A stretch of 64,000 nucleotides of DNA from Mesostigma viride (Eukaryota; Streptophyta; Mesostigmatophyceae; Mesostigmatales; Mesostigmataceae). Within the stretch, counting starts at the first letter, position 1. Each line of letters begins with the position of its first letter. Positions 14,406-43,742 of this stretch are shown piece by piece. The notes under the pieces are model-generated. The model had not been told where the DNA came from and searched no databases. It was given only the letters and a program-made list of their open reading frames with translations. The DNA is taken from NCBI GenBank assembly GCA_009746045.1, contig RPFO01000102.1, positions 1,482,540 to 1,546,539 on the forward strand. The letters run 5' to 3'. Both the position numbers and the translations under genes were made by a program.

Positions 14406-17400
14406 CTGTGGTGGTGGTGGTGGTGGTGGTGGTGGTGGAGGAGGAGGAGGAGGAGGAGGAGGAGGAGGAGGAGGTGGTGGTGGTGGTGGTGGTGGTGGTG
14501 GTGGTGGTGGTGGTGGTGGTGGTGGTGGTGGTGGTGGTGGTGGTGGTGGTGGTGGTGGTGGTGGTGGTGGTGGTGGTGTGGTGTGTACGTGGGAGGAGGG
14601 GGGGGAAGGGGGACAGGGGGACAGGTAAATAAGACATTGATGAGGAACACAAAAATCAAAGATATTAGATAATAGATAATAGATAACCACATCCAGATTA
14701 CAGGGTTGGGGGCATGGGGGTGGGGTGGAGGAAAGAGATATTGGCATGAGCTGCCCCGGCTGGATACTTTCTCCTATTCCCACCTACCTCCACCTACTCC
14801 CACCTATTCCCACCTACTCCCACCTACTCCCACCTACTCCCACCAGTCATCCCTGCGTTAAGTTACGATCGCCGCCAAATTCTTGGCGTCGTAACTTAAC
14901 GCGGGGACGTAACCTTAGCGGTAGAATTAGGCTAGCAGCCCACCCCCTCCTCTTCTGACGGACTTCTATACGGCAATCGACAGCTCTCGTCAAGCCCGAT
15001 CCAGCTGCAGCATCGAATTGCCCAAAGTCCATTTTCCGGGCCAGCTATTTTGCGTAAGGTAGGCGGTCAGGTACATGCTGCCAATGATCTCGGCGTCCTA
15101 ACTTAACGCGGGGCCGTAACCTTAAGAATCGTAACTTAACGCGGGGATGGCTGTACTCCCACCTACTCCCACCTACTCCAACCTAATCCCTCCTACTCCC
15201 TCCTAATCCCACCGCTGCGGTGAGCAGCCTCCACTGACTGGTAGCCCTCTATCCCCCTAGTCTTCCGGTCCTGTTCCATCGATACAAAATGTACAAACCT
15301 GGCCACACTACCGTGCCCAATTGCCTTTGACAGGAGATCGCCCAGCATCTAGACAGCACGCACTCGCCTTATCATGATACTAGTCCCAATACTTGCAACA
15401 CGCAAGCCATCAAGCATGCCTGCCCAACATCACTACATTTGTCTGGACTTTGTATCATCCAGCATTAGGAATCATCCCTTCGCCCGGCTCTATCCATGTG
15501 TCGATTAGGACAAGCAAGCCATCAATCAGCATGTCGGCACAACAGCCGCTCTAAGGACCCCAACCTATCCCCCTGTCCCCCACCGCTGCACCCATCCTAT
15601 TCCACCAATCCTCGGCTTCATGAGGGCCACCCCTTTCGGGAAGGGGCACTTTGCCCAGTTCTAGTTCTATTTACTTCTTTAATGTTTACTAGGGAAGGAT
15701 AGGCTTCGCGAGCGCCACCAAACAAATGAAGGGCTCGCTTTGCCAAGTTCTAGTCCATCATGTACAAAACCTGCCCCACTGGCGCGCTGATGGCCTCCAC
15801 CGGTTGATCATCCAGCATCTAAAAAGGGACCCATTTGCTTTATCCGTGCGATGGCAGTGAGCCATATCCACGATCCATGAGACAACCAGCGCAGGCCAGA
15901 AATCGGGAGAACCCGGACCATGCCAGCTGCTGTCTTATCCGCGTTTGTGCTCGAGACTGCTGCTGTCTTATCCACGTTTGTCGAGTCGTTCAGGATGATG
16001 GAAATAAATCCTTGATAAATGGAGGTGGAAATGCTGTCCACATACCTGCTCAACCGCCGCGTTGATGGCCTCCACCGGCTGGTCGTCCAGCATCTGGAAG
16101 TCGATCACGACGAGCCGCGGCCTCAACGAGCGCGCTGAGGGGATCATTGGGACCGACGTGGGCCCGCTCCCATCGATAGTGTGCCTCAATCTCCTCGCCC
16201 GTCGCATCACGCCATCCGTGCCGCCTTCGTCACCACCACCACCACCGCCACCACCACCACCACCACCACCACCCAACGCAGCGCCACCACCCAATGCAGC
16301 GCCTCCACCCGCGGCCCCAGAGGCCACCGCTGCCATGCCGTCGGATTGTGAACATGTTGCCGCACCACCAGCGCCCAAAAAGGACGTCGGGGGAGCCCCC
16401 TGGCTGCTCCTATCTGTGCAGCTCGCGTTCACGGGGCCACCGCCCAAGGCGCCGGCGACAGCCCATGCCGGCACACTCACGCTCTGGTTGTTGCCGCTGT
16501 TCCACGCCACCGCATTCGTGCCCTGCGCCAGCATGCTGTTGCCATGGGAGGATGACCAGGCGCTGTTGCTGCTGTGAGTGGCCATGGCCCCGTCCCTGTC
16601 CCCGTACCCAACCACTCCACCCACATTCTCGACATAGACCGTTCGCGCCCCAAACCTGCCCTCCCCGTTCGAGCTCAACGGTGCCTCCCCCCAGATCCGC
16701 CGATCCTCCTCGCCCTCGCCTCGTTCACCCGTGCTCTGAGCCTCACAGCATGCTTGCCTTTCGCTGCCTGTGAGCCCCTTGGTCTCCAACGCCGGCCCAG
16801 CAGCCCTCATCCCTTCTGCCCCACCGGCTGGGCCATTCCCCCTCACCCCCACGGGCGCAGAGACCGGGCGGCTGGCCACCGTCAGCCCCTCCGCCATCAG
16901 CCCCCGCAGCCACTCCGGCTCCTTCCCTCTGCTGCGCTCCACGCTCATCCCAGGACTCGACCCGGCCGGCGTAGACGTGTTTGTCGTCGCCGCCGCCGCC
17001 ACGTCACGGAGCGCATCAATCACCTCCTCCCATGTGGCCACGTCCCTGGGGGCCAGGCCCAGGGTGCGCACACATGCAGCCACCTTGGACCTCGTGAGCG
17101 CACCGCGGAGGCAGAGCACCGCGCAGCCCCAGGGACCAAACTGGGAGGAGCACAAGGAGGTGAAGGAGGCGGGCTCGGAGCGGGACGGGTGCGCGCCCGG
17201 ACCGCTCTTCGACCCGGGGCCCTGGCGAGGGGCAGCCAAGGGGGCCCCGTTGGCGGCGTCAGTGCTGGCGACGATGCAGAACTTGCAGGGGTGGCTCACG
17301 CAGCGATCCGGGAAGTGGGGGGACGCGTGAGCGGGCATTGGCTCCGGGAACTCGAGGTTCTGTGTGGCCCCCCCCGGCATCAAGATGGCCGTTGCCATCG

Positions 17401-18821
17401 CTGTGACGGCAGTGGTGGTGGTGGCGGTGCTGCTGCTGCCTGCCCAGGGCAGCCGCGGCGTGGGCGACCCGCGGCGGGGCGCGCGCGGGCTGATGAACGG
17501 GCTGTGCGTCAGCCGGAAGGACGGCGCCAGGGGGTGTAAGCCGACGTAGGGCCCCGGGTGCAGCGTGGGCAGGACGAGGTAGAAGCAGATCAGGGTCCCT
17601 GCGGGGGGGGAGGGCCAGGGGCACAGGCGGGGATGCGGAGGAAAAGGAGAGGGAGGGGAGGGGAGGGGAGGGAGGGGAGGGGAGGGGAGGGGAGGGGAGG
17701 GGAGGGGAGGGGAGGGAGGGAGGGGAGGGGAGGGAGGGGAGGGAGGGGAGGGGAGGGGAGGGGAGGGGAGGGGAGGGGAGGGGAGGGAGGGGAGGGGAGG
17801 GGAGGAGGGAGGAGGGGAGGGAGGGGAGGGAGGGAGGGGAGGGGAGGGAGGGGAGGGGAGGGAGGGGAGGGGAGGGGAGGGGGAGGGAGGGAGGGAAGGG
17901 AAGGGAAGGGAAGGGAAGGGAAGGGAAGGGAAGGGAAGGGAAGGGAAGGGAAGGGAAGGGAAGGGAAGGGAAGGGAAGGGAAGGGAAGGGAAGGGAAGGG
18001 AAGGGAAGGGAAGGGAAGGGAAGGGAAGGGAAGGGAAGGGAAGGGAAGGGAAGGGAAGGGAAGGGAAGGGAAGGGAAGGGAAGGGAAGGGAAGGGAAGGG
18101 AAGGGAAGGGAAGGGAGGTTGCGGAGACAGCTCAGAGATAAGAGGAGCTAGGCGATCGAGATGCATGGAGGGGGCAAATGGGGACATGAGGACGAAGAAT
18201 GGGCGAATGGGGGGCGGGGATGGGATAGCTACGGGAGAATGGGGGACGGGCGTCACGCAGCAAGTGGGAATCACGGTGGAAACAGACCCAGGATATCATT
18301 AAATTGATTCAAAAACACTTGGAACGCGTCATGTGGGTACCAAGAAAGGAACCTTCAACCCCTACACAGACCGAGGATCATCCCATCCATCAGTGGAAAG
18401 AGGATCAACCCCCCATCTTGTAGACGCGAGCCTTCACGATGCAGACGAGTATCCGTTGTAGCAACTACAGATAAATGACGACCGCAATAGAAATTGTAAT
18501 AGGTAGATTAGAATAGCAAGAGATCCTCATCGATTAGTAATCCCTGTTCGTACTACTATTACGTAACCCCTTTCCATCACGCACCTGGGCCCTGCTTGTC
18601 AGCGATGCAGATGTGGCCGCCCATCTTCTCGACGAGCGCCTTGGCTATAGCGAGGCCCAGCCCGGTGCCCCCGTACTTGCGCGTGTGGGAGACGTCGGCC
18701 TGCACAAAGTTCTGGAACACGAGCTGGCGCTTCTCGGGGGGGATGCCGAACCCGGTGTCCTCCACCTGGAACACCGTGGGGTGGGGTGGGGTGGGGTGGG
18801 GTGGGTGGGGTGGGGTGGGGT

Positions 18822-18852
<31 letters not shown>

Positions 18853-21800
18853 GGTGGGTGGGGTGGGGTGGGGGGTGGGTGGGGTGGGGTGGGGTGGGGT
18901 GGGGTGGGGTGGGGTGGGGTGGGGTGGGGTGGGGGGTGGGTGGGGTGGGGGTGGGGGGGGGGTTGAGGTGGGAACAGCGGTGCTGACTACGTGCGTTGGG
19001 ACCAACCCAAGTATTGGGATTCCACCAAGTGTTGGATGAAACCTTGGGATCACATCAAGGGATTAGAGAAAACGTTGAACAAGGGACCGGGGTGGTGTAG
19101 GGAACGCGCTTCTCCGTCCAGCAATCCTGGGGCCTAATTATCTTGTTTATAATGTTAACACGAAAAGGTGATAATACATATAGACTACTATTATAAGTAG
19201 TATACGTTATTTGGTTTAGGAACATGCTTCCTGGGGGGGATGCCAAACCAGGTGTCCGGCACCCAGTGCGACATGAGGTGTGTGCGGGGGGGAGGGTTGG
19301 CCGTCAGGACACAGCGGTGTGGCACGTGTGTTGGGGTTATGAAAGAAGGAATCGGCCCGGTTAGGGTACGCAGCCGCTGGCCATTGTATTGGGACAAAAA
19401 GTATGAACAAGAAGGATGAAAACAAAGAGACACATCGGCCGTAGAAGTCGCACCGGTGGGCCATTGTGTTTGGACGGCAACAAAGCGGAAGGTCGGCCGT
19501 AGGGCCGCAGCGGTGGGTGCGTGTAGGGCCGCAGCACCGGCGCCGTACGTGGGCAAGTAAGCGGGATCAATCAATTAAACACGTGCACCCGTTGGGGAGT
19601 CACGGAGCACCGGAGTGCTTTTAATCCCTGTGTGTGCGCAGCGGGCAGGGGGCAGAGACTCCCCCCTTCCCTCATGCCACAGGCATGCCACAGGGTGCAC
19701 AATCGGACCCATCGAAACGATCCCCTGTGGGTGCAATAAAGCGTCGATATAGCAAAAGCATAGCGGGTGCAGTAGGGCTGCCTCATGGTCCAGTGGCCAC
19801 AGATAGGCTTGGAACTCATTCAGAGGCGCCGGTTTGGGATAGAAAGGCCTCTCCCGGAGCCTGAGGGGTTTTAGGGGCATACCCAGGGCTCACTCGGGTA
19901 AGCGGGATGGTCAGGGGGATGACACAAAACAAAGGATGCATGCAGATACTGCTGCGCGTGATAAGCTTAGGTTACCAGCGAGCGGTTATCGCTGGGTAAC
20001 TAATGGTCCGGATCCTTTAAGCCGAGCAGCCTAACTAAGGATTCCGGCCACTATTTATACTAACTGCAACACGTACGACCCACCTCCAACTCGAGGACGA
20101 CAAAGTCCTTGTTATATAACCATGACATCCGCATCCCATCCATCAACCATAAGGGCATTTGTTGACCCACCTCAAACTCAAGCACAACGTCGTCTTTGTT
20201 CTGCAACAATGGCATCCGGGGCCGATCCACCGACCATAAGAGCAATTGTTGACCCACAAAACTCGAGGATGACAAAGTCCTTGTTCTATAACCATGACAT
20301 TCGCAGCCCATCCACCGACCATAAGAGCAATTGTTGACCCACCTCAAACTCGAGGACAATGTACTCCTTGTCCTTGATCCCCCGCGCGAGCAGCAGCTCC
20401 TTCTGCTGGCGCGCGTGAATCCATCCCTCGTGGTCGGGCGGCGCCACGTTGCCCCGAATGACCACATATCCCTCCTCGGTGAACTTGATCGAGTTCGAGA
20501 TGCAGTTGCTGAAGATCTGGCGGACGCGCTCGGAGTCACCCAGTACGGTGGGCGGGAAGCCGCCTGGGGGGCAGGGAAGTAGAAAGGGATAGAGGAAAGG
20601 GGAAGATAGTTAGGACGGTATCATTGGGAGAAAATGGGGAAGGACAATTATGTTGGTTTCCAAAGTCAATGAGATGAAACCCCCTTGGGAGGCTGGAGGG
20701 TGTGTGTGTGTGCGGGGGTTGACATCGATAAAACCTAGACCAACCTGCTATCGAGTACTCCACAACCCAGCTGCTATCCAACAACCCACAATACTTCACC
20801 TACAGTACGTTCCTTGCTGTCTGATCCATTGACGTGGTTCCGTATCGCAGGTTTTCAGTATACAATGAGAGATAGCTCGGAAAGTGATGTTGGGAAACCC
20901 ACACTACCTACCCCACCTGACCTATCTCCACAGTGGCTCCAGGAAACAAAAGCAACTCACTTGAAATTTCCTTACGTACAGCCCATGAAGTATCTGGCAG
21001 CCCACAACCCACCTGGTACTTCCAGAGGCGGGCCGCCCGGCAAACAAAGGCATTCTACACGAAATGTAACAGCATAATTAATCCCATTCGATATGTAATT
21101 AACCGCAATAACCCACCTGATATTTCCAGCAGCAGCTCCAATGAATTGCGGCATGCAGTTGGCCACGCAGATCCACCATAATTGATGTTTAATAAGCTAC
21201 AATGGCCCACCTGATAGTTCGAACAGCAGCTCTAACGAGTTGCGGCGGTTGGCCAGACCGATCGCGTGCACGTTGACCAGCCCCTCGACGGTACGCGCCA
21301 AGTCCAGGCTGGTCTCCTCCAGCTGAAGCATGCTGCCCTCCACCTGTGTGTGCATGCATACATGAACACCAGGGGAAGAGAGCTATCATTAGTAGCTCTA
21401 GACGAGCATGGAAGGACACATGCACCAGGCTGGTCACCACCAGCTGCAGCATGCTGCCCACCGCCAGCGTGCAGGCATATGGGAAGACCAGGGAAAGAGG
21501 CACATTCGACGGTGACAGACCACAGGAAAGAGGAAGAAAAGTGAAAGCATGTGGGGAAGCATACTAGTATGGGAAAGCGAGGGAAAGAGGCACATTTGAC
21601 AGTGAGAGACAGCAGGAAATGGGAAGAAAAGCGCAGGCATGATGCCCTCCAGCTGTTTGCATAGGCACATGCCAAGGGATGAGCAGGGAGAGGGGATGGC
21701 CAGATGGCCAGAGCACAGGCGAGAGGGAGGGCATTTCAAACATGCTGCCGTCCATGCTGCCGTCCACCTGCACACACGTAAGGCGGTCAACGCAAACGGG

Positions 21801-24800
21801 AGACTTCCGATGGCAGGAAACCCCGGGTGCGAGGGATGACAGCGGGGGAAGAGGTCACTGTATGATCATGCGATGATGGGTACAGGTCACTACATGATCA
21901 TTCGACGGTCGGTAGAGGTCACTATATTATCGTTCGACGATCATAAGAGGTCACTGTATGATCATTCGATGATGGGTACAGGTCACTACATGATCATTCG
22001 ACGGTTCGGTAGAGGTCACTATATTATCATTCGACGATCATAAGAGGTCACTGTATGATCATTCGATGATGGGTCGGTGACAAGAACCAGATGCAAGTCT
22101 TGCATCTGGTTCTTGCCTCTGAGGGGGGAACTACGGTGACGAGGGAGAAAAGAGACTTGAGCATGCCAGCATCCATCTGCGCAGTCAATAAGCAGGACCA
22201 GGGGGAGAGCATAAAATTTAGAAGAAACCAGCAAATAGAGCAGACTGTAAAAGCCAGCAATAGAGCAACTACAAAAGAGGCAGAATTGCTTGAGCACCGA
22301 ACACCGACTTAAACAGAACAGCTTTTCGTGGTCACGCCCACTTTCTATGATTCCTCTCTGCTTTCGCTAGCCCACTGCCTGGTTCATGTGCAAAAAGGCA
22401 GAAAAGCCACTTGCTCTGCTCAGGTTTGAAAGTATGGGACCGCCCACTTGCCTTGCTCAGGTCCAGAATGCCATTGATCAGGTTGAGCAGGTCGACCGAG
22501 CAACTCTTGATGTGCGCCACCGACTCCCTCTGGTCATGGCCCAGCTCGTCAGTCATGAGCAGCTCCACAAAGCCCAGGATGCCTGTGAGGGGCGTACGCA
22601 GCTCGTGGCTGGTCAGGGGGGCAGGAAGGGGAGGGGGAGGGGGGGGGGGGGGGGCGCACACCTGACATGATTAGGCAGGCAAACGAAACAAACACAGCCC
22701 AGAATGCCCGTCAGGGGCCTGTGCAGCTCTTGGCTCAACAACTATTTAATTACAGAAACAAAACTAAAGAGGCAGGCAGAAGGAAGAAACTAGTTCCTGG
22801 TCTGCATGTGAGACCATTATGCAGCTTTTGCCTGGATGCTTATGTACTTATAAAGGCAGAACGATGTAAGCAGGCAGAAAAGAAAACACTTGCCAGACCG
22901 CCGGTAAGAGAGCTATGCAGCTTGTGCCTGGATGCTTATGTATTGATAAAGGCAGAACGATGTAAGCAGGCAGAAAAGAAAACACTTGCCAGACCGCCGG
23001 TAAGAGAGTTGTGCAGCTTGTGCCTGGACGCTTCTGCATGTATTTACCCACGTATTCACTCATGGGGATTGAAGGTTCCTTTACTCTGTATTGGCACCCA
23101 CGTGCTTATTAATTAATTACCCACGTATTCACTCATGGGGATTGAAGGTTCCTTTACTCTGTAGTGGCACCCACGTGCTTATTAATTATTTACCCACGTA
23201 TTCACTCATGGGGATTCGTTTCGCCCTGCGGCCCATGTACACGACAAATTAGGCAGGGTAAATCCAAGGACACCGGCCAGGGAGGTACACAGCCAGTGGC
23301 TGGATGTTTATGATTCTTAAAACTAAAACAGACCAGATCAGGCATGCAGGAGACAGCGGTAAGCCTGTGACGCCGGTGAAAATGGCACGCACCTCGCGGC
23401 CTTTGACGTACTTACTTCCTCGTCCCCCCTGCCCCTCACCTCCTGTTGGAGACGAACACGGCAGTGCTTCTGCTAAGGGTTTTTGTCATTCGTCAACTTG
23501 TTGACTATTTGCCTCGGCACTTCGTCAAATGGTTGACTATTTGCCTCAGCAATTCGTCAAACTGGTTGACTATTTGCCTTGGCGCTTCGTCAACCCTGGG
23601 GGGGGGGGGAGGAGGAAGCTTTATTTCTTCATAATTAACGTAAGGTCGCTCACGCCTCACACACGCATGTAATGCATGTGGATAAAACATAATATCACAT
23701 AGTGGTTGTTGACAACTGCATAAACTACAGAATAACTACTAGTATGGTTCACAGCTAGGCCTGAGTCAAGTGTGCACAGCACGAGGCCATTAAACAACCA
23801 TTACATCCTCCTCACTGCTATCAACAGGCACTACTGGCACAGTTTTGTCCGAGCTTGGCCCTGCACCCTGCGCGCTGCGCGCGCCTGTCCACTGGTTGTA
23901 CTCCTGTCTCTGCCTTTTCGCTGCTGGCTTTCTCTTGCCCTTCTTCTTCCCCTTCTTCTCCCCTGGCTCAGAGCTGCCGTCATCATCGGCCTTGCTCCTT
24001 TCTGTCTAGGCCCCCTCCTCGCCAGATTCCTCCTCGCCAGATTCCTCCTCGCCAGAGTTTGAGGCGCTGTCAGATGATGCTGACTGGCCGCCATCTTCCT
24101 CTTCCTGCGCATTAGACCCATGCTCTTCCTCACGCTCTACTCTCTTGCGTTTGTCGCGACCCTGCCTGCCCTCCTTTTCATCTAAACTGCGGCCTAGGTC
24201 GACGATATTTTCCGTTTCTACAATTTCTCCAGCTTGCTTCTTAAACAGAGCATCTAAGGTGCTAGTCTTGAAACCTGCCAACCCGTTTTTCTTCGACATT
24301 CTCTAGCTCATGCAACACTACCTAAACATCGCCGCCGCCATTATCGAAACAATTTCGCATGCAATATTTTATCGCACATGAAGTCGCCAGACGGCCTGAG
24401 GTCGTCACGTAATTAATACCATGATTGCCCACCAAACACCAGAGTGATTACAGGTAATAATTTTTTCATGCCCTGGTCGGCTCAAGTCCTGCCTTGCTCG
24501 TCTTCAGTTTTGGTACCCGAGCATTGTCCTGAACCGTACTGACGTACTGTCTTTCCAAACCAACTCCAACTGCAGCGTACCTAGGATTCAGATGGTACGG
24601 GCTGACGGCCTGACGCCGCGCCGCTGGACCTTAGGTCTGGCCTTCAGGACTTAGGTGGTTGACGAATACCCTAAACATTTCGTGAAACCGGTTGACGAAC
24701 TTCGGAACATATTCGTCAATTGGTTGACGAATTGCCGAGTTGGTTGACGAATGTGGTTGACGAATTGCCCAAAATGGTTGACTATTTTACTACTATTTTC

Positions 24801-27800: not shown

Positions 27801-28382
27801 GAATTTTCAGCCCAACACTCGCGCAAAATGAAGTGACGGCAACTACCAAAAAGTTTCCGTTACGAATTTTCACTCCCACACGTTTGCACAAAAGGAAGTG
27901 ACGGCAACTACCAAAAAGTTTCCGTTACGAATTTTCAGTCCCACACTTCGCGCAAATTTTAGTAGGGCTGCACGCAAGCTACCTTTCAAAATTTTGCGCT
28001 AGTATGGAACGCATTTCATTCGTCTGGAGGAACGCTGCCCGCCAACTACCCCCGTTCAGAAAGTTCCGCCGAAATTTACCCGAGATTTGGAAATCTGAAC
28101 GTCCGCGCAAATTTTAGTAGGGCTGCACGCAAGCTACCTTTCAAAATTTTGCGCAAGTATGGAACGCAATTCATTCGTCCGGAGGAATGCTGCTCGTCAA
28201 CTGCCCCCGTTCAGAAAGTTGCGCCGAACTTTACTTGAGATTTGGAAATCTGAACGTGCGGTTGGAGTTTCGCGGGGAAACCCAAGTTCCCAAGTAATTC
28301 ACCAATGACGCGCTTCGAACACTTGTCCGCTAAAACCTAAGCAGCCGCTCCGGCTGGCCACTTAAACGAAACTTGATGTGGG

Positions 28383-28478
<96 letters not shown>

Positions 28479-37400: not shown

Positions 37401-40400
37401 TACCGGGTTCGGTTCCTCTCGGAGGCACGGAACTGTAGTTGCGGCGGGTAGGCTGGCCTGGGAGGCCGAGTTGAAAATATATTTGTGGATTTCTATGGAC
37501 GGTGGAGGGCCCCGGTATAGGCCAAGTCGAAATTCAGGGATAACGGCAGGAGGCTGGGCTATTAGTCGAGTCGTAATTAATCTTCACATCGGTAGCTGTG
37601 TGTGCGGAATTCCGGATTTCCCCACGCGGCCCAATTTTAGTTAAGTAATGCGAAATGCATTACTTTTGCAACTTGCTCAAGCCCCCTACATGTAGGCCCT
37701 GGTCAGCCCCCCCCCCCCCCCCAACAGCTACTGGTCCCCAAAAGACGACCTAGCACTTCCAAGCAGGAAAAACCTGGCCTACGCACTAGTGGCTTAAAAA
37801 ACTCGGCCCAGCGGCGGAAAACCGGGTTGGCAAATACGCCGTACGGAGCCGCAAAAAAACGGGAATACGCGTACCGTTTGCCTCCGCCATGTATTCGCGT
37901 ATATATTTTATAATACTGTACCCGCTTTGGACTTTGAATTTTTCGGGGGTACCAGCGGGAAGCGGGCAGTGGCGCGGTGCCCAGGTTCTGACTGAGGTTC
38001 TGGGCGCGACGCTTTCACCGCACATCCGAGATTTTTACTTCTAGAAGTAGATGCGTACAATTCTTTCCATCAAGCGCAAGCCTTGCAAAATGTTTGGCAG
38101 GTAGGAGCTAGGACTAGGTATATAGCGCATTATTATATCAGTATGCCAGCTTTATATGCCAGCTGTGCTACTGGCGGTGCAGTGTAGGCTAGCTGCAAAA
38201 TATAGCGACGACGAGGTACGTCCGGTCTGGCCAGTGCGACAGTGTGCAGCCATTTTCAGTTTGCATGCAGCCATGCCGAAGAAAGGGCCTGAACGGGATT
38301 TCGTTGTCGAGAAGAAAGAAGCATTCACAGATCCTTTTAGTATGAAAACGGTGAATGTGACGAAGATGTTCTGCTCATTTTGCAACAAGAACTTCTCCTC
38401 CAAGGCGGGGCCGGCCAATCAGCGCATTCCAAGCCCCTGCAAACTTTGCCAGAACCGAAGGTAGAGGGATGTTACCCTGCGAGAACATTCCACAGAATAT
38501 CCGGAACAGGTTTTTTCCATGTAGATGCACGCCCTAAAACAGTCGCGTATTTTACACCCGCGTATTTTACACCCTCACGTATTATACGGTATTCTTACTA
38601 AGGCCCCGCGTTTATGCCCCGTACCCGTATTTGCCAACCCCGGGCGGAAAAAGCTCAATATATTCAGCACCGTTCCTTCTTGTACCTAGCCCCCCCCCCT
38701 GTGCCCCGATCTCCTTTTGCCCTGACCGAGTCCTCCCCAGCCCCCGACCCCGTTCATCCCCCAGCCCGCAAATTCCCCCCTCCCCCCCCCCCCTGGAAAT
38801 CTCCACTTGGCGCCACTTGGCACTTCAACAGTTCATAAACTAATGTACAAGTATTCATTTTCCAGGCCCCGGCCCTACCTCATAGATGTACGGCGTCTCC
38901 CGCGTGACGTTCGGCGAGCTCTGGTACATCATGTGCATTCCCGGCGCCGGCCAGTCCTTGTGATAGCCGACCGAGACGGCACTGCCCGCCTGGATGAGCC
39001 CGAGCGAGAACGCGTCCACCCCCTGGCTAATCAGCCCCTCGAACGTGGCCCACAGGATGGGCGCCAGGTGGCGCTCCGTGAACTCCCAGGGGAACGCGGG
39101 CGTGTGCGGGTCAGTGTCGCGCAGCGCGTTGGATCGCAGCGAGCGCTCCATGAAGACCAGGGACCCACACACGGTGTCCAACAGGTGGTCCATGTGGGAC
39201 CGGGCGTGCTCGAGCTGGGCCTTGCGGAGCGTGAGCGAGACGCTGCCCACGGAGCGCTCGGCCGCTTGGCCCCTGGATCGATTGGGGTAGAGGGGGGGGG
39301 GGCGGGGGGAGGGGAGTTATTGTATATGTATAGTGACAGAGCCTTTAATTCTACCACTTGGGCAATTAGGTCCGTCAATACTTATCCGGCGAAAACCACT
39401 CGCCGGTATTCATTCCGCGTTAAGTTCACTATTTATAATAACTAGGGGGGGGTATGAGTTAGAATAGTTTGCGGCGACAATAAGTACTCTTGCAGGAACA
39501 GTGCCGCCAGGGGGGGCGGGGGCCTAGAGTGCGCAGGGCTAATTACGCGGTCTAGGGGCCGGAGGCGTAATTAGGCTTAATTACGAGGCAAGGGGGCCGC
39601 CCGCGTAATTTGTCTGCAGAGGGGCTCTGGTGATTCGTGACTGCGAGAGAACGCTTCCTTTCCCGCATGTCAAATGTAAGTAATAGGTGAATAGCCCGGC
39701 TTTTCCCCTTTATACATCGAAGGTTCACTTCGACTCCTTGCGCGCTAGTATAGTAGAAGTGAACCTTCGACGCATCAAAGGAAATAGTCGGGCTATTCAC
39801 CTAACCGCACGCGTGGGGTCAGGTGTTCGGTTCCTCAATCGCAGGGACGGATTATTTGGGAAATAATTCAGCCGGAGCGCAGGTGCCACAATCACCAGAA
39901 CTCTAGGTAGTGCCTGAGGTTCCTTGGAAGGGTTGTCCAAGTTAGAATATTGCGGCGACAATGATATTCCAAGTACTCTTGCATGGGAGTAGTTATGGGG
40001 GCCGGGGGGCGCGCCTAGTTGAGTGCGCAGCCCGGCAAATTACGAGGCCTAGGAGCCGGAGGCGACGTAATTAGACTTTATAATTACGAAGAAAGGGCCG
40101 GGCCGGGCGTAATTACATGTAGTCTGCGGAGCCTGGGCTCTGGTAATTTGTGAGTGCGCGGGCTAATAGTAGCTAGCAGTGGGCTAGCTGCGAGCGAACA
40201 CTTCCTTTCCCGCGCGTGTCAAAATTAAATTAGGTGAATAGCCCGGCGGCTGTTCCCTTTTATTATACGTCCAAGGTTAATTCACTTCGACTAGTACTTG
40301 CGTGCAAGTAGTCGAATTGAATTAACCTTCGACGTATGAAAGGGAATAGCCGGGCTATTCACCTAACTGTATCATTGAATGAGTTCCTACAGGTTCATAG

Positions 40401-43400
40401 GTAATAGGTCATGAGCATCTTGCATGGGTGGGGAGTAGAAGGAGTGGGTGTGAGGGGTTGGACGCCAGAGCTGATGGAGAGGATCACATCAAGGTTGAAT
40501 TATTAGGACGAGACGATAATATGTAAAGCCAATTAGAGTGTACTTGTTTAGGTGCGCTATAGTAAATTAAGGTATGTAAGTATTCAGTGATACACGTGTA
40601 CCATGCAATGTCATCTGTGGTCACTTTCAAGAGCCTAGATGTCTCTCTGAATGCGCATTGCGACATGACCAATATCACATGATGCGGCACGTAATGCCTA
40701 TGTACTAATTGAGCCAGTGGGGTGAAGCTGGTTTGCTTCATCACATGGATGGTGCATGCCGCTTACGACACCTTCTACTAAATGTGGATGTCACCAACTT
40801 TAAAACACTTTATGGCCAAGTGGTTACTACGATCGAGCGCTGAAATAAAATTGACTAATGATGATATCGAGGTGTCAGAGTGCTTTTTGAATTTTGAATG
40901 CTAGCACAAAGGGACATTTAGGGCCTACTAGACCATGCACAGAAAGTGTAGGCATCGCGGGCGGGCATCATAGCCAAGGAAGTATATTAATAATATTTAC
41001 AAAAAGATGCATCAAATATATAATGAATCTAATAACTATACTAGCTGATGGAGTGACAGTACATACACCGATGATGTGAGAACTGTCATAGAGTTGATAC
41101 TAAACCAACTATTATTAGTGTGTGGATACTGCCACTTCAGGTGTGGGCACTCACCTGATCAACCACTTCTGTGAATACGGTCACATTTGATACTCACATG
41201 ATGAACGATGCTTGTCAATACTGTCGTAGTGGCTACTCACATGATTGGCAATGTTTGTGAGTAATGCTGTAGTTCTTACTCACAAGATCAATCATGTTTG
41301 AGAGTACTGCCCTTAAAGTAGTAATGATGCACTCACATGATCAACCACGCGACAATGCATGCGATGGATGTGACCACTGCCAGCATAACCTGCGCAGTGT
41401 CGCCAACACGAATATCGTACACATACATGAGAGTGTACATGCTCAGAGCTAGGCAAACATTAAGCCAGCAGCAGCAAATGGCAAGTCAAACTGCATTAAT
41501 TAGGTATAGAGACGAATAGCCACCGAGCTGGGTGCCAGCCAGGGCGGAGGGGCTAATAAGTAGCATGGAGGTATATACAAAATAAGCAAAGAAGCAATTC
41601 AGGAGGCAAATCAGGCAGATGACAGTCGCTGCTGAGGACACAACAAGCCGAGTCCTTACTATTAGCTAAGGTGCTTCTGCTTCCTCGCCTTCAGCCCCGC
41701 CTTCTTGGCCCCCACAACTCCTGGAATTCTAATCTCCGTTTCTGCCCAATCTTTGCGTCATCAGGGCAAGCATCTATACCCTGCCCTGCGATGCCCGCAA
41801 AATGTGCGCGCATCCGGGTCACACTATAACCTGCTTACCATCGCCACTGGTAAAATTGTGGCCGCAAAATGAGCAGCTAAACTTCCGCTGCGAAACCGTT
41901 TTCCCCAGAGCATCCTTCACCGTGACAGTTTTTTTTTGCTACAAATTCATGCTCTGGCCCTTTTTCTGGCATGGCTGCAAAAACACATTTGCCCTTAGCG
42001 CAAAATCCAATGGCACACCGCCATGCAATATTAATGATACAGCTGCTATGTTGTGTACCACGTTCCCAACACAGCTGGCATTTTCATCCTGCTGGCACTC
42101 TGTCCGTGTAATTTCAGTTCGCTTACCAACTGCCAATTAAGTCATTACTGGACTTGCGAAAAGCCTAGTTCATAGTAGAAAATCTTGGTGGTACAGGTAC
42201 CTAGGCGCCGCGCCACGGTCCGGTTGGCGCCAAGCGCTGACCCAGCTCGAAACTCGAAAATGTCCAACTTGTCCAAATCACGTATTCGGGACAAAATACG
42301 CGTATAATATGTCGCCCGGGCCAAAAAAACGTGTATTGCCGTATTTATTTTGACAATACGCACGTATTTGCCAACCTGGGCTTACATATTTATAGCTACA
42401 TACAAGCTGAGCAGTCTGTATACACGAGCGATTCAAGTCACGCCCAGTGAGTGCGAAATCAGAATGAAACGCCGTATGTAGACAGTTGTGTGGGTGAGGA
42501 TGTGGGTGGCCCTAGGGGGTGGGGGTGGGGGGAACCAGGGATTAGGGAGGGAGGGAGGGAAGAACTCTTTCTATTTGTGATTTCTATATTAAGTTCTGTT
42601 CTCTGCTCCAAACTAGGCAGCTCAGCTCATCATCGTCCAGATGCATGCAGAAGCGCACGCGCATACGCTGATATGCTGCAGGTACTAGCCTGTGATATTT
42701 ATATTCAATAGCCTATTCCCTGGCAATTCAGTACAGGGATTTTGGTGTCGTGCGATTAATTGCTCCCTTTTTACCTACATAATACCCTCACCTACCCCAC
42801 CCAATCCCCATTCGCAGTTGGCAATCTTCATCCACGGTTACTACAGAAAGAAAAGGTTGGAGGTCAATCAGGTCATAGCAGACAGGAACAGGTTGCAGAT
42901 ACTAAGAGAGAGAAAGAATTGACGGTACATCCTTCACCTATACTAGTGTTGCACTCTCGTAAAGCGTACACGTTTCTTGCGCCATACTAACAAGAAAGCC
43001 GGAAGATAACGGCGTGAACATGATCGTTGTCGTTATCTCTTCCCAGAGGAATCTTAGGGAGCGTGTTTATCGCCCTAAAAATACCCATGAGACAACCAGC
43101 GCATGCGCAGGCCAGAAATCTGGAGAATCCCGCGGACCATGGTAGCTCGAGCCTGCCGTTATCTAATTATCCGCGTTTTCGAGTCGTTCATAATGATGGA
43201 TATGAATAGAGATGGAAATGTGTAGTCTTATTCGTTGAAATTAATATGGCCTAGCTTGATAACGCTCTTAAGAGCGACTAGATGACATGGACGGTGGGGC
43301 GGCCGGAAACACCTTGCTTGATCAGGGCGTGTGTTTCGAGGCGCACACAAAATGCAAAGGAGAATACGGACTTGAGGACGGAGAGCAAACTCGCACGTGA

Positions 43401-43742
43401 CGACCAGGCTAGGCCTACATATCTACGCGTGGGGAGCGGCCGCCAACTTACAATGATGCTTAGCCTGGCAACCAGAACGGCACCAGGTACGTGATTGCAG
43501 CCAATGTGCAGCACTCTCTTCCGCTTTCCTGGAGCCCTGGCCGATGCGCTGTCCTGGCCAGCCTGCTTGTCTCCACCGTTAGAAGCTTCCGAGGCATGGC
43601 CAGTCTGAACGATGCGTGAACTATATGCGCCAGCGCCAGCGTAATCCCGGCCATGGCCAGCAATTTCGCTGTATGAGCTCCTTGTCTGAAGGTCATTCGT
43701 CAAGCGTCGAATAACATGGTTAAATCTCGACGTCGACGCCAT
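9693..43742 (-). CDS. dCache hybrid histidine kinase gene, 13 exons, 2843 aa (hand-built)
   Basis: Membrane hybrid histidine kinase of a multistep phosphorelay. An extracellular Cache-type sensor should control autophosphorylation on a HisKA histidine, with transfer to a C-terminal receiver aspartate. Exons 43452-43742, 41337-41389, 38879-39272, 33089-33378, 31113-31290, 27156-27388, 25117-25251, 22452-22608, 21211-21343, 20343-20563, 18585-18765, 16046-17598 and 9693-14405 join with matching phase and total 8532 nt. Domains by residue: TM1 about 93-115, sensor about 118-450, TM2 about 455-477, HisKA with His526, HATPase about 610-765, degenerate receiver about 910-1330, low-complexity linker, receiver about 2708-2830 with Asp2758 and Lys2813. 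Introns use GT-AG except one GC-AG. The first two exons are the least certain. Protein ligand and symbol are unknown. Confidence 0.85.
10690..10730. repeat. Histidine-coding triplet run
   Basis: Plus-strand gtggtg triplets code a His-rich patch (HHGAHHHHHHHGHHSHHHS) on the minus strand inside exon 13. Confidence 0.8.
11748..11928. repeat. GAGGGC hexamer array coding Ser-Pro
   Basis: About 29 near-perfect copies of a 6-bp unit lie inside exon 13. In the minus-strand frame they give a long alternating Ser-Pro tract, and frame is preserved because the unit is a multiple of three. Confidence 0.95.
13590..13955. repeat. 27-bp array coding SSSYNNNNG
   Basis: About 13 tandem copies of a 27-bp unit (ttgttattatagctgctgct..) give a nine-residue repeat in the minus-strand frame of exon 13. 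Variation is mainly at synonymous sites and Asn/Ser/Lys positions. Confidence 0.9.
14408..14578. repeat. TGG/AGG triplet satellite at a 3' splice site
   Basis: Pure GGT and GGA triplets lie directly against the exon 13 acceptor. On the coding strand they form a CCA/CCT tract, serving as an extended pyrimidine-rich tract. Confidence 0.9.
14780..15215. repeat. Intronic repeats: cccacctactc units and aacttaacgcgggg inverted motifs
   Basis: Cacctactcc units occur at 14785-14845 and 15150-15215. They flank a segment (14855-15145) with several inverted and direct copies of cgtaacttaacgcgggg, perhaps a small element. Confidence 0.55.
15318..15822 (-). repeat. Ghost copies of the exon 12 donor edge
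   Basis: 15765-15822 (gatggcctccaccggttgat, then catccagcatct) copies the exon 12 end at 16044-16100, including the position of its donor. A weaker copy (gatcgcccagcatct) is at 15318-15352. Confidence 0.7.
15876..15992 (+). repeat. Dispersed repeat catgagacaaccagcgcagg
   Basis: Related copies occur at 43085-43195, 59715-59795 (reverse) and 60856-60905. They share the words gccagaaatc.gg and ttatccgcgttt..gagtcgttca. Confidence 0.7.
16046..17598 (-). CDS. Kinase exon 12 (end of HATPase, first half of degenerate receiver)
   Basis: GTLICFYLVLPTLHPG completes the G2-box strand of the ATPase. Near residue 912, GCAVLCLRGALTRSKVAACV and DVATWEEVIDALRDV match strand 1 to helix 2 of a receiver but lack the paired acidic residues. 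About 300 residues of Gly/Ser/Ala-rich sequence intervene, including a polyglycine run from a CCA repeat. RPRLVVIDFQML then supplies the strand-3 aspartate. Donor is GAGCAG|GTATGT, phase 0. Confidence 0.85.
17640..18117. repeat. GGGGA / GGGAA satellite in intron 11
   Basis: Irregular ggggagg units (17640-17895) grade into about 44 perfect gggaa units (17895-18115). On the coding strand this is a pyrimidine tract within about 40 bases of the exon 12 acceptor. Confidence 0.95.
18585..18765 (-). CDS. Kinase exon 11 (HATPase G1, F and G2 boxes)
   Basis: Codes VEDTGFGIPPEKRQLVF (G1/D-box), QNFVQADVSHTRKYGGTG (F box and lid) and LGLAIAKALVEKMGG, ending QGP at donor CCAG|GTGCGT. The acceptor TTCCAG| abuts a long plus-strand GGGGT satellite, which is pyrimidine-rich on the coding strand. 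Confidence 0.95.
18779..18960. repeat. GGGGT satellite in intron 10
   Basis: Tandem ggggt units with ggt interruptions, immediately 5' (on the coding strand) of the exon 11 acceptor. Confidence 0.95.
19218..19268 (-). repeat. Ghost copy of exon 11 start
   Basis: Translates on the minus strand as PDTWFGIPPRK, against EDTGFGIPPEK in the real exon at 18725-18765. It lies on the upstream side of the exon, within intron 10. Confidence 0.75.
20075..20342 (-). repeat. Three tandem ghost copies of the exon 10 donor edge
   Basis: Units of about 87 bases each repeat cccacctcaaactcgaggac followed by tcctt and a tail (taaccatgacat..ccatc..ccataag). Ghost junctions are at about 20083, 20170 and 20257; the real one is at 20342/20343. 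The first two keep the GTGGGT donor on the minus strand; the third keeps GTGGGT but has lost part of the exon edge. Confidence 0.85.
20343..20563 (-). CDS. Kinase exon 10 (HATPase N-box)
   Basis: GGFPPTVLGDSERVRQIFSN then CISNSIKFTEEGYVVI carries the N-box of GHKL ATPases (GD..R..QI..N...N..KFT). It ends IVLEFE at donor GAG|GTGGGT. A roughly 25-residue insertion (HARQQKELLLARGIKDKEY) lies between the N-box and G1-box strands. Confidence 0.9.
20900..21178 (-). repeat. Ghost copies of the exon 9 donor edge
   Basis: 21108-21178 (acccacctgatatttccagc, then agcagctccaatgaattgcg) copies the exon 9 end at 21206-21260. Weaker copies begin near 21005 and 20903. Confidence 0.75.
21211..21343 (-). CDS. 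Kinase exon 9 (HisKA to HATPase linker)
   Basis: VEGSMLQLEETSLDLARTV corresponds to the family pattern IEAGKM.LE...FDL..L. Acceptor ACACAG|GTGGAG, donor TCAG|GTGGGC, phase 0 in and 1 out. Confidence 0.85.
21420..21785 (-). repeat. Ghost copies of the exon 9 acceptor edge
   Basis: 21423-21478 (caggctggtcaccaccagct, then gcagcatgctgccc) copies exon 9 at 21305-21345. Shorter copies are at 21640-21665 and 21741-21780 (the latter with ccacctgcacaca). Confidence 0.75.
21850..22076. repeat. aggtcactatatgatcattc tandem array
   Basis: About eight units of roughly 30 bp arranged in a higher-order period of about 90 bp, in intron 8. It is followed at once by a perfect hairpin. Confidence 0.85.
22081..22115. 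repeat. Perfect 17-bp hairpin with one-base loop
   Basis: caagaaccagatgcaag, t, then its exact reverse complement. No mature RNA can be inferred from this alone. Confidence 0.9.
22404..22432 (-). repeat. Ghost copy of the exon 8 donor edge
   Basis: gccacttgctctgctcaggt copies gcccacttgccttgctcagg at the real exon 8 end (22442-22461). Confidence 0.6.
22452..22608 (-). CDS. Kinase exon 8 (HisKA domain, H-box)
   Basis: Begins within Ser525 and reads HELRTPLTGILGFVELL, then LNLINGILDLSK. His526 is the expected autophosphorylation and dimerisation-domain histidine. The acceptor is CCAG|CCAC after a G-run on the plus strand. The only donor that keeps phase is AAG|GCAAGT, making this a GC-AG intron. 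The next exon then supplies VEGSMLQLEE in place of the usual IEAGKM. Confidence 0.9.
22690..22742 (-). pseudogene. Ghost copy of exon 8 start (HisKA H-box with Gln for His)
   Basis: Minus-strand reading gives SQELHRPLTGILG, against SHELRTPLTGILG in exon 8 at 22565-22608. It sits about 125 bases upstream of the real exon start on the coding strand. The histidine codon CAC has become CAA, so inclusion would give a kinase-dead H-box if it were spliced in. Confidence 0.75.
22825..23035. repeat. Two tandem copies of a 103-bp unit
   Basis: gcttgtgcctggatgcttat, then the run to ccgccggtaagagag, is repeated almost exactly (about 22828-22930 and 22931-23033). Confidence 0.9.
23042..23220 (+). repeat. 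Tandem copies of the gaaggttcctttactctgta tail
   Basis: About two and a half units of 73 bp (tacccacgtattcactcatg, then ggggattgaaggttcc, then cacccacgtgcttattaatt). They are related to the tails of the dispersed repeats at 3475 and 8420. Confidence 0.8.
23462..24848. mobile_element. hAT-type DNA transposon (intron 7)
   Basis: Terminal inverted repeats start CAGTGCTTCTGCTAA and the flanks carry the 8-bp duplication GAACACGG (23454-23461 and 24849-24856). An 8-bp duplication with CAGTG-like ends is diagnostic of hAT elements. Both subterminal regions carry many copies of ggttgacgaa or its complement, typical of transposase-binding repeats. At 1387 bp it is too short for a full transposase. 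Confidence 0.85.
24006..24299 (-). CDS. Acidic 97-aa ORF inside the hAT element
   Basis: Starts MSKKNGLAGFKTSTLDALF and ends in an acidic run (NSGEEESGEEESGEEGA). It has clear codon structure and a plausible start, but I do not recognise a family. It may be the N-terminal remnant of an element-encoded protein, or a transcribed small ORF in intron 7 on the same strand as the kinase. Confidence 0.4.
   Translation of the reverse strand: MSKKNGLAGFKTSTLDALFKKQAGEIVETENIVDLGRSLDEKEGRQGRDKRKRVEREEEHGSNAQEEEDGGQSASSDSASNSGEEESGEEESGEEGA
25005..25060 (-). repeat. Ghost copy of the exon 7 donor edge
   Basis: cacctgatgttggagaggaa, then cgcggtctctgcgtgcgcc, copies the exon 7 end at 25113-25160 with its donor position kept. 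Another copy (ctcacctcctgttggagacg, 23436-23461) was split by the hAT insertion. Confidence 0.8.
25117..25251 (-). CDS. Kinase exon 7 (signalling helix into HisKA)
   Basis: Codes FTTPVTRDIKRKAEHLECL, a HAMP-like or signalling-helix segment, then EKENAEQLAHAKTMFLSNM and the first two bases of Ser. The wording AKTMFLSNM(S)HELRTPL is the classic HisKA start. Donor is ATGAG|GTAAGG. Confidence 0.9.
25325..25520 (+). repeat. Dispersed repeat, copy 2 (see 8600-8810)
   Basis: About 190 bases closely related to 8600-8800; intron 6. Confidence 0.75.
25618..25668 (-). repeat. Ghost copy of exon 7 start
   Basis: gtgcttgatgcctcgcgcaa, then agggggtagcgaacctg, resembles gcgcttgatgtcacgcgtga, then caggggtcgtgaacctg, at 25219-25253. 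Confidence 0.7.
26205..26335. repeat. ctacattcagtgtactagt tandem array
   Basis: Six or so units of about 19 bp in intron 6. Confidence 0.85.
26757..26948. mobile_element. Foldback MITE
   Basis: The 192-bp element is almost one long palindrome. Ends are AGTGACGGAACCTT and its complement, with inner arms tccggcgaaaaccactcgcc. A half copy lies at 39338-39431. Confidence 0.85.
27156..27388 (-). CDS. Kinase exon 6 (end of sensor and second membrane segment)
   Basis: DPSARTSGISVSFYLDGRHY leads into strands typical of the second Cache lobe, then IPRSMLLGD and the membrane helix GIFILASVCAILFVVGVLA. Acceptor GCCAG|GAC follows a long CACC-rich coding-strand tract. Donor TTCAA|GTGGGT keeps phase 2 into exon 7. 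Confidence 0.85.
27411..27571. repeat. GGGT satellite before exon 6
   Basis: About 40 tandem gggt units. On the coding strand this is a CACC tract ending about 25 bases from the exon 6 acceptor. Confidence 0.95.
27602..28367. mobile_element. Inverted-repeat element with internal tandem duplications
   Basis: Ends are imperfect 27-bp inverted repeats (cgttcaagtggcccgccgga, then gcggctg, and its complement). Inside, a roughly 75-bp unit (gtgacggcaactaccaaaaa, then gtttccgttacgaattttca) is repeated three to four times (27720-27960). A 154-bp unit is repeated twice (27950-28103, 28104-28258). No coding potential. No clear target duplication. Confidence 0.6.
28386..30410. repeat. Two-kilobase compound microsatellite block in intron 5
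   Basis: In order: GA (28388-28476), GGAT, GGAC (28498-28730), GGAT, a short unique stretch, GGGC (28895-28975), then GGGA with many GGA interruptions (28985-30390). Purines are all on the plus strand. Open frames across it are artefacts of repeat units. Confidence 0.95.
30935..31110. repeat. gcggttggtttccgatcttt array next to exon 5 donor
   Basis: About five units of roughly 30 bp. The last unit (gcttccgatcttgttgccca) runs into the exon 5 donor itself, so the array may have grown from the donor-proximal intron. Confidence 0.75.
31113..31290 (-). CDS. Kinase exon 5 (second Cache lobe)
   Basis: Codes YFVTEDMALLATTLGSAV.. to YIQRQ, with acceptor CAG|GTACTTTG and donor CAG|GTGGGC. Phase 1 in and phase 0 out match. 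The acceptor and first 24 coding bases are repeated in about ten tandem copies upstream of the exon (31357-32000). I take the copy nearest the exon body as the used site. Confidence 0.8.
31357..32000 (-). repeat. Array of about ten ghost copies of the exon 5 acceptor edge
   Basis: Each roughly 79-bp unit contains catgtcctcagtcacaaagt, then acctggggga, identical or nearly so to the exon 5 start and its acceptor (31266-31300). It then has gggaggaagggagagttcga, an intronic spacer. Two weaker copies follow at about 32070 and 32355. Every unit presents a CAG|GTACTTTG acceptor on the coding strand. Confidence 0.9.
32099..32276. repeat. GTTT microsatellite
   Basis: About 42 tandem gttt units in intron 4, after a short gt run. 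Confidence 0.95.
32690..33012 (-). repeat. Ghost copies of the exon 4 donor edge
   Basis: cccacatgatgccgcggtac, then aactccagctgcgccatcat, at 32791-32830 copies the exon 4 end at 33085-33125. Weaker copies are at 32693-32726 and 32985-33012. Confidence 0.8.
33089..33378 (-). CDS. Kinase exon 4 (Cache ligand-pocket region)
   Basis: Starts AVDPVWGQRTGQIVKSFV and contains QRTAPWYRAAAV. The aromatic pair in PWY is the hallmark of Cache_1/dCache sensors (R.WY..A). It then reads VSSMPVRHPLTGELKMVLG, matching the usual strand pattern, and ends AT|GTGAGC. Donor-edge copies lie downstream at about 32693, 32791 and 32985. Confidence 0.85.
33400..34200. other. Intron 3 interior, nothing identified
   Basis: AT-rich then unique-looking sequence. 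No recognisable coding or repeat family apart from the start of the nested transposon cluster near 34203. Confidence 0.4.
34233..37180. mobile_element. hAT-family relative interrupted by a piggyBac-type element
   Basis: Both ends resemble those of the 37822-38643 element (tacgccgtacgg.., acgcgtatttta, the gggggtaccag..ccagcgggcagc block at the left; gtggatgcgcgccctataac, cgcgtattttaagcccgcgt at the right). Terminal words gtgttg and caacac are inverted. I find no clear target duplication. 31-bp near-direct repeats (cgaaacgcattacttttgca..) lie at 34203 and 37651. Boundaries are approximate. Confidence 0.5.
35220..36910. mobile_element. piggyBac-type DNA transposon, non-autonomous
   Basis: The ends are CCCCTAAATGGTCT and its exact complement, flanked by TTAA on both sides (35216-35219 and 36911-36914). 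TTAA target duplication and CCC-starting ends are the signature of piggyBac elements. Palindromic words cagccgatgcatcggc and cagccgatttatcggc sit just inside each end. No transposase is recognisable in the 1691 bp; the minus frame 35440-35868 (142 codons) has no family I know. Confidence 0.75.
37189..37651. mobile_element. MITE with arms of about 110 bp
   Basis: Arms gcattacttaaactaaaatt.. and its complement (..aattttagttaagtaatgc) extend inward through gggccgcgtggggaaattcc and attaattacgac. No coding capacity. Confidence 0.75.
37822..38643. mobile_element. Short hAT-type element with BED-like finger fragment
   Basis: The ends CCGGGTTGGCAAATACG and CCGGGGTTGGCAAATACG are inverted and flanked by the 8-bp duplication GCGGAAAA (37814-37821, 38644-38651). 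These ends and the duplication length fit hAT elements. It carries the start of a transposase-like ORF (38274-38463). Confidence 0.85.
38274..38463 (+). pseudogene. Truncated transposase N-terminus, BED-like zinc finger
   Basis: MPKKGPERDFVVEKKEAFTD is followed by MFCSFCNKNFSSKAG, a Cys-x2-Cys start like a BED finger. The frame ends after 63 codons in LCQNRR, so it is a fragment. A minus-strand relative, MPEKGPEHEFVAKK.. with FSCSFCGHNFTSG, lies at about 41830-41972. Confidence 0.6.
38879..39272 (-). CDS. Kinase exon 3 (sensor domain, first part)
   Basis: Codes GQAAERSVGSVSLTLRKAQ onward. A long amphipathic helix after TM1 (LRKAQLEHARSHMDHLLDTV) is followed by WATFEGLISQGVDAFSLG and YQSSPNVTRETPYIYE. 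A long juxtamembrane helix leading into a PAS-like fold is the usual layout of dCache sensors. The acceptor follows a G-rich tract on the plus strand (pyrimidine on the coding strand). The donor is GAG|GTAGGG. Confidence 0.8.
39338..39431. mobile_element. Half copy of the foldback MITE
   Basis: Matches the left arm and centre of 26757-26948 (ccacttgggcaatt.ggtccgtca, tccggcgaaaaccactcgcc, attccgcgttaagttca). It is located in intron 2, just upstream of exon 3. Confidence 0.8.
39455..39806. mobile_element. Repeat element with terminal foldback, copy A
   Basis: It shares with 39930-40366 a leader (gcggcgacaat, aagtactcttgca, taattacg, gggctctggt) ending in a roughly 118-bp palindrome. The palindrome opens aggtgaatagcccggc and closes with its complement (39688-39804). 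Confidence 0.7.
39930..40366. mobile_element. Repeat element with terminal foldback, copy B
   Basis: Same order of motifs as copy A, in the same orientation. Palindrome at 40224-40364 with inner words aattcacttcgactagt. Confidence 0.7.
41149..41336 (-). repeat. Four ghost copies of the exon 2 donor edge
   Basis: actcac.tgat.aac words at 41149, 41192, 41235 and 41278, spaced by 43 bases, echo the real donor edge actcacatgatcaacca at 41331. Three of the four keep GTGAGT next to an AT or AG. Confidence 0.8.
41337..41389 (-). CDS. Kinase exon 2 (first membrane segment)
   Basis: A 53-base microexon coding VMLAVVTSIACIVAWLI, with acceptor GCGCAG| and donor AT|GTGAGT. Phase 0 in and phase 2 out match both neighbours. 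An earlier acceptor near 41447 would extend it with more hydrophobic residues (LSMYTLMYVYDIRVGDTAQ) but breaks phase with exon 1. Four degenerate copies of its 3' edge and donor follow in the intron. Confidence 0.65.
41750..42377 (-). mobile_element. hAT-family fragment (minus strand)
   Basis: The right side ends cgtatttgccaacctggg, the complement of the hAT end seen at 37822. Inside, minus-strand words MPEKGPEHEFVAKK and, in another frame, FSCSFCGHNFTSG match the BED-like fragment at 38274. The left end is not found. Located in intron 1. Confidence 0.55.
42400..43080. other. Intron 1 interior, nothing identified
   Basis: No convincing gene. A short gggaggga tract is near 42545. A dispersed-repeat copy begins at 43085. 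Confidence 0.4.
43452..43742 (-). CDS. Kinase exon 1 (N-terminus)
   Basis: Starts with ATG at 43742 (MASTSRFNHVIRRLTNDLQ) and has 97 codons. It ends ..VARLSII at a strong donor, ATT|GTAAGT. The end is phase 0 and joins VMLAVV of the next exon, giving one continuous hydrophobic stretch. The middle is Gly/Ala/Ser-rich, and a basic GKRKR lies before the membrane segment, consistent with a cytosolic positive side. A TATATAA word lies about 60 bases upstream on the minus strand. An overlapping frame (MTFRQGAHTAKLL.., from 43696) is also hydrophobic but hits a stop before the donor. Support is phase, hydropathy and the donor, not homology. Confidence 0.6.

Follow-up and report, generated by a model that had tools for sequence, protein, structure and literature searches.

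A histidine kinase gene on the minus strand of a 64,000-nucleotide stretch of Mesostigma viride DNA (the window) raises the question of how its introns came to hold sequences resembling the edges of their own exons. The gene spans approximately 43.7 to 9.7 kb of the window. Pfam found HisKA and HATPase_c in the spliced piece of exons E3–E12 and Response_reg in the terminal part of the E13 frame, and the gene is therefore of the hybrid type, a histidine kinase with a response regulator. A single open frame joins E2 (41337–41448), E3 (38879–39272), E4 (33089–33378), E5 (31113–31290), E6 (27156–27388), E7 (25117–25251), E8 (22452–22608), E9 (21211–21343), E10 (20343–20563), E11 (18585–18765) and E12 (16046–17598). 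The junctions are GT-AG, with the sole exception of the GC-AG donor at the end of E8 (22452), which falls within the HisKA region. E13 (9693–14405) continues the same frame from an acceptor picked by hand among nine in-phase candidates. The candidate first exon, E1 (43452–43742), is connected to E2 only with uncertainty, the two being out of phase.

No relatives of residues 1–400 of the 660-residue E3–E12 piece were found among the 7995 candidates scored. Pfam revealed no other host gene in 30 further open frames (28 in 1–9.6 kb and 54–64 kb, two at 48.5–49.6 kb). Pieces of a retroelement, assigned by us to the Ty3/gypsy type, occupy positions 49062–53366 of the plus strand and encode gag, aspartyl protease, reverse transcriptase, RNase H and integrase in separate frames. 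Long simple repeats at 27413–27570, 18776–18961, 17650–18116 and 14408–14583 adjoin the acceptors of E6, E11, E12 and E13, respectively, or lie no more than ~50 bp upstream. By eye, they are without AG and look like polypyrimidine tracts expanded into repeats.

To detect edge copies, long simple repeats were masked and a query of 45 exon and 12 intron nucleotides was compared with the adjacent intron. Twelve of the 23 kinase edges (only the donor was included for intron 12) scored higher than all 100 dinucleotide shuffles of the adjacent intron. The positive edges sit in introns 2, 4, 6, 7, 8, 9, 10 and 12, exactly those in which the first-pass annotation had reported copies; introns 1, 3, 5 and 11 had no positive edge against the same 100 shuffles. 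When 500 shuffles were made within 100-bp blocks to preserve local composition, 11 of 24 edges outscored them all, and the donors of intron 2 (reached by 1 of 500) and intron 8 (7 of 500) fell below this full standard. The exon edges thus had more matches in their introns than in shuffled introns, and chance was rejected as an explanation. An iterative profile search returned 41 copies, at 13 edges, whose scores exceeded those of 50 shuffles and of every other intron; the acceptor edge of intron 9 is weak in this set, and that of intron 8 includes two adjoining short hits. The positive edges scored lower against other introns than against the adjacent one, but across all edges three scores against a non-adjacent intron (92, 97 and 105) exceeded the weakest positive (intron 2 donor, 91). 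The best reverse-complement score, obtained as a control to a search of the direct strand, was 78 against that same 91, and all the counted copies are in the direct orientation.

The youngest and clearest array lies immediately upstream of E5, at 31291–32001, where nine tandem units of 78–79 bp each carry the first ~22 nt of E5 preceded by a pyrimidine tract and CAG, replaced by CCG in one unit. Private substitutions distinguish the units. Their copies match 24–25 of 28 exon bases and 27–30 of 28–30 intron bases, and the most distant copy in the array matches 23 of 27 and 19 of 25, respectively; a tenth, degenerate copy of the unit was placed at 32063–32089. Both boundary types are affected. 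Acceptor-edge copies were also found for E7 in intron 6 (25620–25687), for E8 in intron 7 (five copies at 22692–23304, partly within a 96-bp tandem array), for E9 in intron 8 (21425–21772, and a weaker one at 22156–22224) and for E11 in intron 10 (19226–19300).

On the donor side, the E6 edge forms a ladder at 26095–27095 with donor positions 27065, 26970, 26521, 26430 and 26150, and two further copies were placed by eye near 26345 and 26102. Three copies of the E10 edge follow at an 87-bp period (20061–20287). Two copies each were found for the edges of E4 (32675–32830), E7 (24968–25056 and 23385–23496) and E9 (21004–21152). The E12 edge is copied in intron 12 at 15757–15824, with weaker copies at 15191–15253 and at 15293–15353, the latter being absent from the profile-search evidence. 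The copies of the E2 edge (41149–41254), weak in the block shuffles as noted above, overlap a degenerate 43-bp array at 41191–41288. The spacing of the ladders, which are older than the E5 array, is 87 bp at E10, 96–98 bp at E8 and 91–95 bp for the first E6 copies. By lag autocorrelation, no introns other than 4, 7, 8 and 12 were clearly periodic, and the intron 12 signal comes from simple repeats. The donor-proximal array proposed for intron 5 is present as 34-bp units at 30939–31075; it matches only the intronic sequence beside the E5 donor and contains no exon edge.

Most kinase copies are 65–85% identical to their edge, and the older ones ~75%. They include 23–60 nt of exon (the query was capped at 60), and the similarity falls off with distance from the edge. 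Windows of 40 exon nucleotides were positive in 5 of 12 cases at the edge, 9 of 23 at 1–10 nt, 4 of 23 at 11–20 nt, 5 of 46 at 21–40 nt and none of 46 at 41–60 nt. Exon-side similarity thus seldom reaches past ~40–60 nt, which fits units spanning the edge and not the copying of whole exons. A further 25 windows more than 60 nt from the edge were positive; 24 of these were inspected and discarded as low-complexity matches of the CAC/CCT type, and one was left uninspected. In old copies, the identity at codon positions 1–3 was 0.741, 0.818 and 0.697, a pattern that continued evolution of the true exon under protein constraint would produce.

Profile searches of the 440-Mb assembly (2243 contigs) were used to examine other genes. 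Twenty kinesin stretches were chosen from 129 matches, and all 32 chosen introns were tested. The selection took introns of 0.3–2 kb between neighbouring matches at near-continuous profile positions. Longer introns and pairs of matches separated by a larger gap in the profile were left aside, as were three pairs sharing a frame, a further near-continuous pair (C1107) and a duplicate contig. Against 100 shuffles, 17 of the 64 kinesin edges, belonging to 15 of the 32 introns, had copies in the adjacent intron. Three introns (the second of L042, the third of L045 and that of L048) deviate from the profile by over 6 residues, and one of the 17 positives is theirs. None of the 64 matched a non-adjacent intron. 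Among the other histidine kinase genes, 20 of 59 HisKA matches, those with shorter frames, were sampled, and 18 of the 20 stretches yielded 27 introns. Ten of their 54 edges were positive, from 7 of the 18 stretches, a count from rough gene models in which some gaps probably skip exons, and made with no non-adjacent control. The pattern reported for the kinase gene therefore recurs elsewhere in the genome.

The kinesin copies are again minisatellite-like tandem units spanning the exon–intron boundary, at donors as well as acceptors. Their exon content was 20–60 nt in 20 of the 31 alignments having at least 10 exon bases (range 14–91, with the query capped at 100), and no exon-side copy started 60 nt or more from the edge. 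At L029, the donor edge is matched exactly over 63 bases only 70 bp away, and at L035 a ladder stands at 88, 171 and 254 bp. Elsewhere in the genome, paralogous introns in L017 and L021 share a donor edge, of which the former (490 bp) holds one copy and the latter (688 bp) two; length variation by copy number was compared between paralogs only. L022 carries an in-frame coding duplication of 81 bp that is absent from its paralog L023.

Two peculiarities of these searches were recorded separately. Sixteen of the 59 HisKA matches lie on contig C2011, in open frames of 237–1071 codons over ~1.15 Mb, six of them sharing the same E-value, and they differ from the intron-rich kinases elsewhere. At C1446:787721–789295, C1:12880425–12881267 and C1502:245341–246129, neighbouring kinesin matches lie 0.5–1.2 kb apart but continue one another along the profile and have open frames of equal length; these would be stop-free introns or coding insertions.

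Local repetition extends well beyond the exon edges. In a survey with 60-nt tiles, direct local repeats covered 24–54% of introns 2, 4–10 and 12, 0–1% of introns 1, 3 and 11 (intron 11 consisting of 12 tiles only) and 7–11% of the flanks, and none of the 156 tiles of the retroelement region (48–54.3 kb) had a local direct repeat. Inverted repeats were seen in 19% of the tiles of intron 2 and 8–11% of those of introns 3, 6 and 12. A short inverted-repeat element was noticed by eye in intron 6 (26738–26960), with a partial relative in intron 2 (39343–39430). In the 20 kinase stretches elsewhere, 381 of 1810 tiles had a direct local copy versus 45 with an inverted one. Within the coding exons E12 and E13, 12 of 13 TRF rows (overlapping rows included) had a period divisible by 3, the exception being a period of 16.

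The copied splice sites were scored with a matrix built from the kinase gene's own sites alone, which is small and partly circular. On this scale, the 12 true donors ranged from 5.9 to 10.9, and 6 of 13 copied donors scored 9.3–11.9. The nine E5 acceptor copies scored 11.1–16.9, with 16.1 for the true E5 acceptor, and the remaining ten acceptor copies outside this array scored from −10.6 to 6.4. The ladders of decoy sites described in the first-pass annotation thus exist on the donor side, and the acceptor side shares in them only within the E5 array. Of 37 alignments, 32 had an edge that could be placed, and 25 of these keep GT or AG, in line with the earlier claim, but special retention of the splice site is not supported. 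When the site was masked during detection, the donor GT was matched at 18 of 30 positions compared with 91 of 150 other masked positions, in a test that loses register in several copies; the acceptor AG was matched at 9 of 12 compared with 36 of 66, from six copies only, too few to tell. Special retention of GT, suggested by 13 of 14 matches at each of its positions in plain alignments, was rejected since positions −5 to +4 were all 85–93% identical, the search having been centred there. An exon extended to the copied site ran into a stop in 31 of 32 cases, and nowhere had a copy visibly taken the place of a boundary; the proposed renewal of boundaries is not supported. The donor decoys are real, and the use of each true edge is deduced from the open frame.

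These observations are very probably explained by ongoing local tandem duplication, through which the introns lengthen while exon edges are carried along and then decay. Segments of ~40–130 bp would be duplicated, a size estimated from how far apart the nearest copies lie (some lie farther apart). Where such a segment straddles an exon edge, a second edge with its splice site would be left on the intron side. The true edge would remain in use, as we infer from the stop that nearly always follows its extension, and the copy would be free to decay. Repeated rounds would build ladders of older and younger copies, and within coding exons the same process would survive mainly as in-frame (3n) repeats. 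The copies would then be by-products and not a dedicated device, though each new one confronts the splicing machinery with a decoy to be rejected.

Several results argue for such duplication. The copies match the adjacent intron in the direct orientation and other introns not at all or much less, and the regular ladders are accompanied by near-perfect young arrays, namely the nine units at E5 and the 63-base match of L029. The difference in copy number between L017 and L021, the coding duplication in L022 and the preponderance of direct over inverted local repeats point the same way. The TRF periods of E12 and E13 are consistent with the same process in coding exons, filtered by the reading frame. 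The claim that introns have grown by local duplication of junctions is therefore borne out for most introns of the kinase gene and extends to other genes.

A rival explanation is that the exon edge itself is the preferred site, because something linked to splicing, transcription or the donor site makes exon–intron junctions prone to duplication. Donors do exceed acceptors, in the kinesins by 13 of 32 to 4 of 32 (p = 0.02) and in the pooled counts, which were entered by hand, by 27 of 71 to 12 of 70 (p = 0.008). The kinase edges (12 of 23) and kinesin donors were also positive more often than 57-nt tiles from intron interiors, of which 90 of 333 in the kinase and 77 of 303 in the kinesins had a local copy; this comparison is approximate, as edges were judged against 100 shuffles and interior tiles against 25. 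However, the kinesin edges taken together match the interior tiles, so that the exon edge need not be the target of duplication and is not clearly preferred. Furthermore, conserved exon edges keep old copies visible while copies of intron interiors fade, so an excess at the edges would be expected from visibility alone (an argument, not a simulation), and the pattern at the edges can be what shows of a general local duplication. Among the young arrays that TRF listed for the kinase introns, visual inspection showed just one, that of 79 bp, in contact with a true edge. Duplication directed to the edge is thus improbable, and the donor excess may instead reflect stronger selection against upstream acceptor copies. 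Still less likely is that selection maintains the copies because they function as decoys or as alternative sites, for instance by tuning expression through unproductive splicing. The strong scores of copied donors and of the E5 acceptor copies would suit such a role, as would the frequent GT or AG and the stops met by extended exons, which would be fit for NMD-coupled control, but the donor GT is no better kept than its neighbours in the masked-site test, and the acceptor copies outside the E5 array score low.

Two other explanations, both extremely unlikely, were rejected on the exon-specific content of the copies, their private substitutions and their occurrence on many contigs. Dispersed elements bearing splice sites, that is, introners or other transposons, are suggested by the transposon-like inverted repeats seen by eye in introns 2, 3 and 6, and introners are known in algae and dinoflagellates (PMC9860276, PMC7789003). 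Nevertheless, each copy matches its own adjacent exon and contains that exon's coding sequence, and within the kinase and kinesin introns the same element was not found at many unrelated loci, as introners would be. In 235 kb of other loci, the kinase edges scored highest at kinase catalytic exons, as paralogs would, in a comparison made with no shuffled control. An error of assembly or reads might be suspected since tandem arrays are prone to misassembly, yet private substitutions separate the units, most copies have diverged to 65–85% identity and the pattern recurs on many contigs.

Local tandem duplication is favoured also by the interior tiles, whose duplication about as frequent as that of the kinesin edges fits copies that arise as by-products. 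Some results count against it. Within the copies, intronic parts match no less well than exonic ones (0.767 versus 0.752 identity), although both intronic partners should have decayed; local alignment ends and young arrays may explain this parity. Introns 1, 3 and 11 have no edge copies and nearly no local direct repeats, inverted repeats occur in introns 2, 3, 6 and 12, and only 3 of the 14 indels between L022 and L023 were tandem duplications by the test used, one of these being simple sequence. The donor excess, too, is not predicted by random duplication unless acceptor copies are selected against.

The first-pass annotation regarded this mode of intron growth as undescribed, which does not hold, since structures of the same kind are known in the lancelet. 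According to the accessible text of two reports (PMC3087553, PMC3902484), the 'mirages' of amphioxus are minisatellite-like tandem duplications of exon–intron boundaries in the globin genes BflGb6 and BflGb9, Adh3, troponin C and PGBD5. They lie on the donor or the acceptor side, have units of 10–160 bp, some imperfect, carry AG/GT in many but not all cases and reportedly do not disturb regular splicing; their authors suggest a wider occurrence in cephalochordates. The copies described here are likewise edge-spanning tandem units at donors and acceptors, with GT or AG in many but not all. As far as those texts go, mirages were reported for single boundaries of single genes, whereas in the present case edge copies occur in 8 of the 12 kinase introns and in 15 of the 32 from kinesins; most are old and degenerate, and the genome has 59 HisKA matches.

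Other known systems are more distant, as judged from the accessible text of each source. In intron gain by tandem duplication (the Rogers model; potato RdRp, ATP2A1 and fission yeast), the duplication carries splice signals and a new intron forms (PMC4974935); here, existing introns lengthen and no new intron is shown. Human segmental-duplication genes have internal tandem repeats at exon–intron boundaries, with 27 intron modifications (PMC2812944). They share with the present copies minisatellite expansion at boundaries and copy-number differences between paralogs, but they are recent, concern a limited set of genes and change the transcript, while the ladders described here are mostly old and, by the frame argument, leave the protein unchanged. 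An earthworm metallothionein paper describes intron minisatellites and exon duplications, without boundary-spanning ladders in the part available. No report of ladders of junction copies as a genome-wide pattern was found in the open-licence literature searched, which is not proof of absence. What is new here is the gene-wide and multi-gene scale, the strong donor decoys and the donor excess.

On balance, we lean towards a wider reading, in which introns throughout this genome derive largely from repeated local duplications that re-copy junctions, many genes transcribe ladders of nearly full-strength decoy donors, and donor copies are tolerated better than acceptor copies. Its genome-wide scale is drawn from two gene families and not from a full annotation. 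Old tandem duplications inside introns fade as both copies decay, which makes it difficult to gauge how much they contribute to intron growth. Conserved exon edges make the edge copies a record of how often introns duplicate themselves, and a genome in which such copies are common would allow the rates of intron growth to be measured. The decoys would allow a direct test of the choice among near-identical splice sites in native genes. If this reading is true, the genome is a natural experiment on how the spliceosome tells the true exon edge from a near-identical copy 70–250 nt away.
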